The position numbers and the translations under genes were made by a program. The notes beneath the pieces are model-generated. The model was not told where the DNA came from. It saw nothing but the letters and a program-made list of their open reading frames with translations, and searched no databases. A DNA stretch of 64,000 nucleotides from an uncultured Anaerolineae bacterium. GTDB lineage: Bacteria > Chloroflexota > Anaerolineae > CG2-30-64-16. Below, piece by piece: positions 1-28,929 of this stretch. Where the stretch lies: contig CAKZKT010000006.1 in assembly GCA_937124585.1 (NCBI GenBank), positions 1 through 64,000 of the forward strand, read 5' to 3'. Each line of letters opens with the position of its first letter. The first letter of the stretch is position 1.

Positions 1-142
1 ACCGGCCCAGCCCACGTGCCAGGCACTCTACAAGATGCCTGGCACGTACCGGCCCAGCCCCACGTGCCAGGCACTCTGCAAGATGCCTGGCACGTACCGG
101 CCCAGCCCACGTGCCAGGCACTCTGCAAGATGCCTGGCACGT
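1..142. repeat. Tandem array of three hairpin repeats
   Basis: Three head-to-tail copies (1-47, 48-95, 96-142) of a 47-48 bp unit. Each unit is a short spacer ACCGGCCCAGCCC followed by a 34 bp inverted repeat with arms ACGTGCCAGGCA and TGCCTGGCACGT and a 10 base loop. The hairpins sit at 14-47, 62-95 and 109-142. The same hairpin occurs singly elsewhere in the window, so this is a local amplification of a dispersed element. The array lies just beyond the 3' end of the nuclease-like gene and may continue beyond the window edge. Confidence 0.9.
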
Positions 143-3661: not shown

Positions 3662-3758
3662 AGACAGGCGCGGTCAGCCACAGAATGCGAGGCTGTGGCT
3701 GGCAAATCTTCTCGCCGGCGGCCGGAGGCATATCTGGCCGTCGCAGCGGATCACTTTG

Positions 3759-4547
3759 ATGCTCTCGATCACAACCGATTACGCCAACGTAGACCGAGGC
3801 GATCCCTCTCCCTATCTGAGGCGGATTGCAGACGCCGGCTTCACCCACATCCACTGGTGCCATCACTGGAACAGCGATTTCATCTACTCTCGCTGGGAGA
3901 TCGCGCAGATCGAGAAATGGCTGGCCGAGTACGGCCTCCAGCTGCTCGACCTGCACGCGCCGGTCGGCCCGGAGAAAAACTGGGCCTCTGACAAGGAATA
4001 CGAGCGGCTGGCCGGCGTCGAAATCGTGTGCAACCGCCTCGAGATGACGGCCCGGCTGGGCGGGGATGCCATCATCATGCATCTGCCCGCCATCGCCGGC
4101 TGGGAGCCGTTGCGCCGCTCACTGGACGAACTGGAACCGGTCGCCCGCAGCTATGGCGTGCGCATCGCCCTGGAAAACGGCGCGCTGCCGGTGATTGCCG
4201 AATGGCTGGCGGAATATCCGCCCGATTATCTCGGCCTGTGCTACGACTCCGGTCATGGCAACCTAGCCCCCGATGGATTGACGCAGCTCGAGCGTCTCAA
4301 AGATCGCCTGATCTCCATCCATCTTCACGACAATGACGGGACGGGGGATCAGCACAACTTGATCTTCACCGGCACGGTGGACTGGCCGCGGCTGGCCGAG
4401 ATCCTGGCCGGTTCGGCCTACCGGAAGCCGATCAGCTCGGAGAGCAACATGGCGCGTTCGGGCATCAGCGATGAGGCGACTTTCCTGGCGCGGGCCTTCG
4501 CTGCCGGCACCCGGCTGGCGGCCATGGTGGCCGAAGCTCACGTGTAG
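3759..4547 (+). CDS. Sugar phosphate isomerase/epimerase, TIM barrel
   Basis: A 262-residue xylose-isomerase-like TIM barrel (AP endonuclease 2 superfamily). Such enzymes usually bind one divalent metal and isomerise or epimerise ketoses, inososes or related compounds. The usual metal ligands can be picked out: Glu in IALENG, Asp in CYDSGHGN, His in SIHLHDND and Glu in ISSESN. The start is the ATG at 3759, which begins the first beta strand (MLSITTDY); the frame is open further upstream but with no conserved sequence. The gene is followed by a repeat-filled gap and then a URO-D-like gene and a sulfatase on the same strand. The substrate cannot be read from sequence. It is one of three such barrels in the window (others at 22698 and 42941) and they are not close copies. 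Confidence 0.8.
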   Translation: MLSITTDYANVDRGDPSPYLRRIADAGFTHIHWCHHWNSDFIYSRWEIAQIEKWLAEYGLQLLDLHAPVGPEKNWASDKEYERLAGVEIVCNRLEMTARLGGDAIIMHLPAIAGWEPLRRSLDELEPVARSYGVRIALENGALPVIAEWLAEYPPDYLGLCYDSGHGNLAPDGLTQLERLKDRLISIHLHDNDGTGDQHNLIFTGTVDWPRLAEILAGSAYRKPISSESNMARSGISDEATFLARAFAAGTRLAAMVAEAHV

Positions 4548-4636
4548 GGGCGCTCGGCCGCGCCTGCGCCCCTGTGTGCAGGAATATTTTCAAGAGAGAG
4601 ATGCCCATATCGGCGCCACGGCGGGTGAAAGCCGTC

Positions 4637-4670
4637 CCGTGCCAGGCATCTTGCAAAGTGCCTGACACGT
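4637..4670. repeat. ACGTGCCAGGCA hairpin, single copy
   Basis: An inverted repeat of the dispersed family, with arms CCGTGCCAGGCA and TGCCTGACACGT. The right arm carries one substitution relative to the consensus, so this copy is slightly decayed. Confidence 0.85.
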
Positions 4671-4727
4671 GAGTACGGCGATTTTCAGGAGAAAGATGCC
4701 CATGCCGGCGCCACGGCTGGCGAAAAC

Positions 4728-4814
4728 GTCATTGCGAGGGGCGGGGCTTGCCCCGAAGCAATCTCCTCCATCGGCGGAGATTGCTTCGGCCCAAACTGCG
4801 GGCCTCGCAATGAC
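4728..4814. repeat. Nested palindrome, GTCATTGCGAGG element
   Basis: An 87 bp element with outer arms GTCATTGCGAGG (4728-4739) and CCTCGCAATGAC (4803-4814), and an inner perfect pair GAAGCAATCTCC / GGAGATTGCTTC (about 4755-4787). It could fold into a long cruciform-like hairpin. Elements of this type (short, palindromic, without a coding region) resemble REP or MITE-like repeats; no target-site duplication is obvious apart from the repeated leader noted above. Confidence 0.8.
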
Positions 4815-4845
4815 ATACTGGTGGGCATTTTCAGGAGAGATATCG

Positions 4846-5850
4846 GTGCAGCCTCGAGAGATCATCCTGGCCAATATCGAGCACAAGAATCCACCCCGGC
4901 CGGGCCTCACATTCGATCGCGGACGCATCAACGACATGCTGGGCGTCGGGCTCATTCCGCACGGCTATCAGCAGCGCCGCTGGACCGAGGGCCGGCTGGA
5001 ATACTATGACGACGAGTGGGGCAACCTGTGGGTGCGCATGGTCGGCGGCTCGCTCAAAGGCGAGATCTTCAAACCGGCCATCGAGGACTGGCGTCAGCTC
5101 GCCGACCTGCGGCCGCCCGACTACACACATCCGGACTGCGCCGCTCACATGAACGCCATCTTCGCCATGCCGACCGACAAATTCAAGCTGGCACACATCG
5201 GCGGCTGGATCTTCGACAACGCGCGCTACCTGCGCAAGATGGAAGTCTATTTTGCGGATATGGCGCTCTACCCCGACGAGTTGCATCGCCTGCACGCCAT
5301 CGTCGCCCGTGTCTACGAACAGAAGATCCACCTGGCAGGCCAGGCCGGGGCCGACGGCATCATGATCGGCGAGGACATGGGCACGCAGACCGGCCTCCTC
5401 TTCAGTCCGAAGATGTTCCGTTTCTATTTCAAGGAGATGTATGCCAGGCTCTTCAGCATCGCCCACGACTACGGCATGAAGGTGCTGATGCACTCCTGCG
5501 GCCAGAACTGGGCCATCGTGCCCGACCTGCTTGAGGCCGGCGTGGATGTGTTCCAATTCGACCAGCCGGCGCTCTACGACATGCCGAAGCTCGCCGCGCT
5601 CCTGCGCGAACGGAAGGCGGCGCTGTGGAGTCCGGTAGACATCCAGAAAATCCTGCCGACAGGCGACCGGCAACTCATCGAGGTCGGCGCCCGGCAGATG
5701 ATTGACCTGTTCGAGGGCGGGCTGATCTGCAAAAACTACGGCGACCTGGCCGGCATCGGTGTCAAAGAAGAGTGGGACATGTGGGCATACCATGCGATCT
5801 GCGCCCGCGTCGGTGTAGATCCGCTCTCGGCGCAGCGGATTGAAAGTTGA
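4846..5850 (+). CDS. Uroporphyrinogen decarboxylase-family protein
   Basis: A 334-residue (beta/alpha)8 protein of the URO-D superfamily. Besides true HemE, this group contains many cobamide- and methyl-transfer enzymes (MtaA, CmuA type) and proteins of unknown substrate. The segment VLMHSCGQNWAIVPDLLEAG followed by GVDVFQFDQP is characteristic, with a His-x-Cys pair that in methyltransferases can bind zinc. The context (isomerase-like and sulfatase neighbours, no haem genes) argues against haem synthesis. The GTG at 4846 is chosen because an AGGAGAG ribosome site lies about seven bases upstream; the frame also runs back through the repeats but that part is clearly non-coding. A second, unlinked member lies at 28934-30121. 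Confidence 0.8.
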   Translation: MQPREIILANIEHKNPPRPGLTFDRGRINDMLGVGLIPHGYQQRRWTEGRLEYYDDEWGNLWVRMVGGSLKGEIFKPAIEDWRQLADLRPPDYTHPDCAAHMNAIFAMPTDKFKLAHIGGWIFDNARYLRKMEVYFADMALYPDELHRLHAIVARVYEQKIHLAGQAGADGIMIGEDMGTQTGLLFSPKMFRFYFKEMYARLFSIAHDYGMKVLMHSCGQNWAIVPDLLEAGVDVFQFDQPALYDMPKLAALLRERKAALWSPVDIQKILPTGDRQLIEVGARQMIDLFEGGLICKNYGDLAGIGVKEEWDMWAYHAICARVGVDPLSAQRIES

Positions 5851-16751: not shown

Positions 16752-16783
16752 TTCGCAGGCATCTTGCAGAGTGCCTGGCACGT
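16752..16783. repeat. Degraded ACGTGCCAGGCA hairpin
   Basis: Only the right arm (TGCCTGGCACGT) and the central AGGCATCTTGCAGAG are intact; the left end reads TTCGC instead of ACGTGCC. The bases after it (GGACGGGGATTTTCGGG) match the tail that follows two other copies. Confidence 0.7.
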
Positions 16784-28831: not shown

Positions 28832-28865
28832 ACGTGCCAGGCACCTGGAAGGGTGCCTGGCACGT
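28832..28865. repeat. ACGTGCCAGGCA hairpin, convergent gap
   Basis: A perfect-arm inverted repeat (ACGTGCCAGGCACC / GGTGCCTGGCACGT) 21 bases after the membrane-protein stop. It is followed by CGGGCGGCGGTTTTCCGATC, a tail also seen after the copies at 19166 and, in part, 16752. Confidence 0.9.
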
Positions 28866-28895
28866 CGGGCGGCGGTTTTCCGATCAACCGTGTCC

Positions 28896-28929
28896 ACGTG
28901 CCAGGCATCTTGGAGAGTGCCTGGCACGT
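28896..28929. repeat. ACGTGCCAGGCA hairpin, second in convergent gap
   Basis: Inverted repeat ACGTGCCAGGCA / TGCCTGGCACGT, ending four bases before the 3' end of the convergent URO-D-like gene. With its neighbour it gives two hairpins between convergent genes. Confidence 0.9.

Follow-up and report, generated by a model that had tools for sequence, protein, structure and literature searches.

Mosaic palindromic repeats are known. Bacterial interspersed mosaic elements (BIMEs) are intergenic mosaics of palindromic modules, and REPINs are tied to RAYT transposases. REP orientation alternates in BIMEs (PMC2817692), and REPINs form tandem clusters together with their flanks (PMC3116915). In the neisserial NIMEs, a constant 20-bp repeat, dRS3, with the sequence ATTCCC(N8)GGGAAT, occurs in arrays with many RS families (PMC3898611). 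Di Nocera et al. 2013 describe CGTC REPs without known transposase; REP clusters are reiterated together with flanking DNA, REP dimers lie regularly inside palindromic tracts with the inner edges TGAAA--TTTCA or GAAA--TTTC, two of the three species yielded no empty palindromic tract, and the phyla listed with CGTC repeats do not include Chloroflexi by name (PMC3733652).

The window, i.e. the whole stretch of 64,000 nucleotides that was analysed, belongs to the genome referred to here as G000. It contains an intergenic block (Table 1) that, with a probability of about 0.8, is made up of two units of a dispersed mosaic repeat in head-to-tail order. A unit combines a conserved left arm with an exchangeable core, in many cases a palindrome that belongs to another repeat family, and a short right arm; neighbours share a linker.

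Table 1. Positions of the repeat units, their parts and the flanking genes in the window.
Feature	Position	Strand	Remarks
Upstream gene, xylose isomerase-like TIM barrel (PF01261)	3753..4547	+	stop TAG at 4545-4547; start codon assumed
Intergenic block	4548..4845	+	gap between the TIM-barrel gene and the URO-D-like gene
First terminal copy, ATTTTCAAGAGAGA	4586..4599	+	left boundary of unit 1
Left arm of unit 1	4600..4630	+	profile score 21.2 bits
Core 1	4631..4681	+	contains REP-like palindrome P1 (4641-4668)
Right arm of unit 1, TTTTCAGGAGAAAG	4682..4695	+	also left boundary of unit 2
Left arm of unit 2	4696..4726	+	profile score 14.0 bits
Core 2	4727..4827	+	contains CGTC-type REP dimer P2 (4728-4814)
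Right arm of unit 2, TTTTCAGGAGAG	4828..4839	+	presumed Shine-Dalgarno sequence AGGAGAG inside, 4833-4839
Downstream gene, uroporphyrinogen decarboxylase-like (URO-D-like, PF01208)	4846..5850	+	GTG start

Between the TIM-barrel and URO-D-like genes, ATTTTCARGAGA is present in three copies, as ATTTTCAAGAGA at 4586-4597 (one mismatch) and as ATTTTCAGGAGA at both 4681-4692 and 4827-4838. The preliminary description had seen a triplicated segment here. Three related copies do exist, each starting 1-2 nt further to the right than was proposed, but the third is not full-length: the duplication of 46 bases that had been claimed corresponds to copies 1 and 2 (4586-4630 and 4681-4725), which have 45 nt in common at 87% identity, and copy 3 (4827-4843) has only 17 nt in common with the others. 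With up to two mismatches, the 13-mer GATTTTCAGGAGA has five matches in the 64 kb compared with 0.71 expected from shuffles, and three of the five fall inside 254 nt. The hairpin reported after copy 1 and the nested palindrome reported after copy 2 are both real. The former, P1, lies between copies 1 and 2; the latter, P2, has arms of 42 nt that are 81% complementary, and the two are unrelated to each other. The two units of the window have different cores. Their ends read AGAG, AGAA and AGAG, the usual ending of the family being RCAG.

To judge from its recurrence in other genomes, the copied "leader" is the end pair of a mosaic repeat that is dispersed in several related Chloroflexi genera. 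In the loci read, a unit begins with the left arm, CATGCCG..GGCGCCACGGCGNATGAAAA, continues with a variable, often palindromic core and finishes with the right arm, TTTTCAGGRCAG. Where units follow one another in an array, a single linker consists of one unit's right arm joined to its neighbour's left arm. The arm motif GGCGCCACGGCNNNTGAAAA (up to two mismatches) is found 19 times in G000 and 49, 67, 31 and 50 times in G004, G005, G006 and G009, respectively, compared with 0-4 per genome for a reversed-pattern control. It is found 0-5 times in G001, G002, G003, G007 and G008, and two genomes of other families, G022 and G025, have 30 and 13 matches, of which 5 and 8 remain when the pattern is tightened. 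An exact linker pattern matched 11 stretches in a collection of genome contigs that may omit records of the window's own genome; these stretches come from four assemblies, all labelled as Chloroflexi or Anaerolineae MAGs.

A profile search of the mapped loci (excluding L138-L148 and those past L240) yielded 154 nonredundant left arms of at least 9 bits in 11 genomes, the weakest of which may in part be chance matches, and 125 of at least 15 bits in 8 genomes. A right arm was found for 101 of the 154; the other 53 have none by the criteria used, some being situated at contig ends and some having truncated cores. Thirteen of the 101 units were dropped (cores with N, or arms below 15 bits outside G000), and the 88 kept units have 85 distinct right ends, with two sequence duplicates. 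Conservation starts about 47 nt to the left of the core (71 units from G004, G005, G006 and G009) and ends at CAG on the right side (75 units). The linker was also considered, by eye, as a coding sequence and rejected as such: it does contain frames that start with ATG, but the cores differ in length and the linkers of G000 carry deletions. A known structured RNA was likewise rejected: in Rfam, window 4400-5000 produced two microRNA look-alikes below threshold, both on the palindrome, and ten loci gave nothing at gathering score.

Arms and cores are separate modules, which combine freely across loci and genera. The 88 units fall into 24 core clusters, an upper bound for the number of core types, as some clusters may be kin; nine clusters hold at least four units, and six occur in at least two genera. 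Folding at z<-2 relative to dinucleotide shuffles is found for 14 of the 24 cluster representatives (median -2.85) and fails for 10. In the loci read, neighbouring units share their orientation: arms no more than 420 nt apart, in 17 arrays, form 25 pairs of the same orientation and none of opposite orientation, a count without the window's pair, whose second left arm falls below the 15-bit cut. Core clusters differ in 10 of 18 neighbouring pairs of clean units (the window's pair included) and are the same in eight.

The two ends of a unit agree more than expected by chance: 18 of 56 units have the same last 6 nt at both ends, compared with 8.4 when ends are permuted within the genome (p=0.0002). 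As many of these units come after another right arm, part of this signal may stem from homogenisation within arrays. The signal is weaker among the 21 units that lack a TTTTCAG-like left end: there are 8 identical triplets compared with 4.1 (p=0.007), and the match of the last three letters is not significant in this class (p=0.11). The idea that insertion was accompanied by copying can thus be kept for the last bases, which are locus-specific and tend to match, but not for the remainder of the segment.

The preliminary description had suggested looking elsewhere for the same palindromes flanked by long duplications. Both palindromes are dispersed, as are the flanking arms, which recur around many other cores. 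P1 occurs six times in the window (up to three mismatches). The G000 loci compared contain 59 clusters with 116 copies, which are lower bounds, as the source searches scored part of the candidates; 32 of the 59 clusters are tandem. In several of these (L049, L064, L057), the repeated unit consists of the palindrome together with part of its left flank (by eye). A TTTTCAG-like right arm lies within 32 nt in 29 of 51 P1 clusters, compared with 1.3 at random places, and TGAAA is present on the left in 12 of 51, compared with 0.8. The CCACGG mark is near P1 in 36 of 51 clusters compared with 23 at random, which alone says little, and all three arm marks are present in only 8 of 51. Three tandem P1 palindromes also occupy window positions 1-142, where contig C6 begins. 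Array and linker both recur at the end of contig C78 (L079), and the assembly was therefore probably interrupted by the repeat between these contigs. More P1-like palindromes, single or paired, are found at window positions 16754, 19170 and 28836-28927, some of them with TTTTC-type right flanks.

At P2, the sequence reads ACGTCATTGC..GCAATCTCC and GGCGGAGATTGC..GCAATGACAT at 4726-4816, the right tag being the TGTC form. Compared by eye with the published description of CGTC-REP dimers, core 2 has the CGTC/TGTC tag and the short AT-starting stem in inverted pairs, and it is also present in many dispersed copies. A query of 301 nt matched 20 of 41 genomes, its own included; in other genomes, among the matches listed, nearly all are to core 2, with two P1-like rows in G009. 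One P2 copy in the window's own genome (G000:C19:44176-44289) is 96% identical to window 4722-4835, and identity spans GAAAAC to TTTTCAGG.

How often each core is accompanied by the present arms varies. Among 41 P2 copies from G004-G006, picked by P2 similarity and compared with a loose arm pattern, both arms accompany three (one of which, L039, has a spurious left arm), one arm accompanies five and none accompanies 33; the arm-picked loci L154 and L119 are left out of this count. Rough counts, in which both halves of dimers are included, give both arms, one arm and none in 26, 5 and 31 cases for core C, whose loci include 15 hand-picked ones, some also with arm motifs, and in 6, 7 and 22 cases for core D. 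Other P2 and D copies lie inside other recurrent arm sets. Where both arms of a set are found, P2 is the core in 4/4 cases for set 2 and in 2/3 for set 3, P2 or a derivative in 2/3 for set 4, and D-type cores in 6/7 for set 5, with another core once in each of sets 3, 4 and 5; all these counts are small.

Individual loci illustrate these other arm sets. At L263, L276, L278 and L290, P2 dimers lie inside the set GTTGATCGCGAGAATC .. GTTGCGGCAGGAGGCCGCG, often with CTATG next; its right arm holds a ribosome-site-like AGGAGG. The palindromic sets AACTACTCAGC..GCTGAGTAGTT (L279, L305, L149) and GACAGGACTTACGCAG..CTGCGTAACTCCTGTC (L261, L267, L308) each occur with P2 and once with another core. The set GTATCTTCTCA..TGAGAAGATAC (L328, L344, L222, L312) has D-type cores, and once an unrelated one. 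The hairpin of core D, GGTGGCTCGGTCNNAGACCGGCCACAGC, has 222 matches in the 4.5 Mb of G006 (up to two mismatches, both strands), some of which are the two halves of one dimer.

AGGAGAG stands 6 nt ahead of the downstream gene's GTG, which is in frame with the URO-D-like protein, and the last right arm appears to supply this gene's ribosome-binding site. The third copy had already been proposed as the working ribosome site; it is rightly positioned for this, and the sequence suggests the working role. A relative allows the comparison of leaders that the preliminary description had in mind. Contig C479 of G008 has the same gene pair, with a URO-D-like protein that is 85% identical and an upstream protein that is 76% identical over 239 residues. 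There, the distance from the upstream TGA to the next ATG is 2 nt, the probable ribosome site, AAGGAG, lies inside the end of the upstream gene, and a search of the junction for the three copies, the arms and both palindromes found all of them absent. No match for the upstream protein was found in the other fetched relatives (G005, G016 and a second G008 copy). Because the G008 junction is empty, the block would be either lineage-specific or lost in G008; it does look inserted, as had been supposed, although loss in G008 is possible. A repeat end would then serve as ribosome site for a gene whose counterpart in a relative begins 2 nt past its neighbour's stop. More generally, the right-hand gene is in sense in 38 of 55 units classified out of 71 (crude ORF call; 16 unclassified). 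At loci L152 and L161 of G025, the linker has a ribosome-site-like GGAG followed by TTATCATG, which resembles a ribosome site with a start codon.

Several origins of the block can be envisaged. According to the preliminary description, two palindromes were inserted independently into a gene leader, and each copied part of that leader. Three copies around two different palindromes, partly locus-specific ends and the lack of the block in G008 all agree with such events. The copied segment is, however, not a gene leader, because it recurs as an end pair around other cores, in the window's own genome and at dozens of loci in G004, G005, G006 and G009, and is missing from the G008 leader; independent leader insertions are therefore highly improbable. 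Hardly any weight can be given to an assembly artefact with collapsed or misjoined repeats: although several arrays are situated at contig ends, the two flanking genes are also neighbours in G008, and the arm-core arrangement is repeated in several MAG assemblies. Ordinary growth of REP clusters, in which replication slippage reiterates a palindrome and its flank in tandem and no mobile unit is involved, is an unlikely source of the block. The tandem P1 arrays that repeat the palindrome with its own left flank do point to such growth, as do the eight neighbouring pairs with one core type, and comparable growth is described for REPs and REPINs (PMC3733652, PMC3116915). Yet slippage copies the same core, and cores differ within the same arms in the window and in 9/17 other neighbouring pairs; the arms of the mixed-core arrays are, moreover, common to many other loci.

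It is possible, if doubtful, that the arms are a landing site only, i.e. that REP dimers enter an older repeat at its middle and the arms of that repeat do not travel with the core. Most P2 copies, and many C and D copies, lack these arms, P2 and D are also found in other arm sets, and similar cases are reported from three species (PMC3733652). On the other hand, an exact pattern that allowed 0-30 nt from arm to arm and no mismatches found no empty arm pair in 41 genomes, its matches in two genomes both having a short core; with the same pattern, three copies without palindromes were not seen either. Arrays of one orientation and the concordance of ends also speak against a mere landing site, and the copy on C19 shares the core and the inner arm edges as one block.

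For the reading as units of a dispersed mosaic repeat, a mechanism can be outlined. A new unit would be inserted next to a short CAG-like site, with a preference for the right end of a unit already present, and its entry would copy the last few bases, which would give locus-specific ends and directional arrays. Cores might be renewed by free-living REP dimers that enter between TGAAAA and TTTTCA or, alternatively, by exchange between units, and the gene-facing right arm would have taken over the ribosome site. We infer the insertion rule, core renewal and ribosome-site use; as no empty unit was seen, no case of a core entering arms already in place was observed. With a single arm pair, many cores, units that point the same way, ends specific to each locus and a junction that is empty in a relative, the family makes insertion rules readable from the sequence. 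A further step is proposed tentatively: the family could be a non-autonomous mobile element with exchangeable cargo, whose fixed arms take any palindromic repeat as core and which inserts one way beside a CAG-like site or unit end, forming directional arrays like miniature, gene-less integron cassettes. More broadly, these Anaerolineae might then hold a combinatorial system with four or more types of arm and ten or more types of core, nested in one another.

Among known systems, BIMEs resemble the present family as mosaics of palindromic modules between genes; their REPs alternate in orientation, whereas the neighbouring units found here point one way (25/25 arm pairs in 17 arrays). The P1 arrays resemble REPIN and REP tandem clusters, in which palindromes are repeated together with their flanks (PMC3116915). 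The present family differs from REPINs in having no RAYT link in the PF01797 comparison, the one to which the transposase correlation was confined. PF01797 matches (four each in G004 and G009, two in G005, one sub-cutoff in G000) do not track arm number, and none was found in G006, which is 97% complete and has 31 arm motifs; mobilisation by RAYT, for which a cognate Y1 transposase would be expected in genomes rich in the repeat, was rejected on these grounds.

The CGTC-tagged REP dimers are matched by core 2, in which CGTC-ATTGC..GCAAT halves face each other; the published tracts, as far as the consulted part of the source goes, have one REP family each, whereas here one arm pair encloses many core types (PMC3733652). 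With the NIMEs, the family shares a short constant repeat combined, in intergenic arrays, with many different repeat families, which in NIMEs are of 30-160 bp (PMC3898611); several unrelated families accompany the constant repeat here as well. Unlike dRS3, a 20-bp repeat with terminal inverted repeats, the present ends are asymmetric, with a long left arm and a 12-nt right arm. The arm consensus is not the dRS3 sequence, the units share their orientation in the loci read, and the phylum differs. No description of the arm family and the breadth of its cores was found among the papers listed, judged by titles and abstract openings. In the way it works, the family is comparable to a NIME, and it includes a REP of the CGTC type. 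What is new here is the single arm pair around many cores, for which Neisseria NIMEs, REP clusters and REP dimers inside palindromic tracts are the close precedents.
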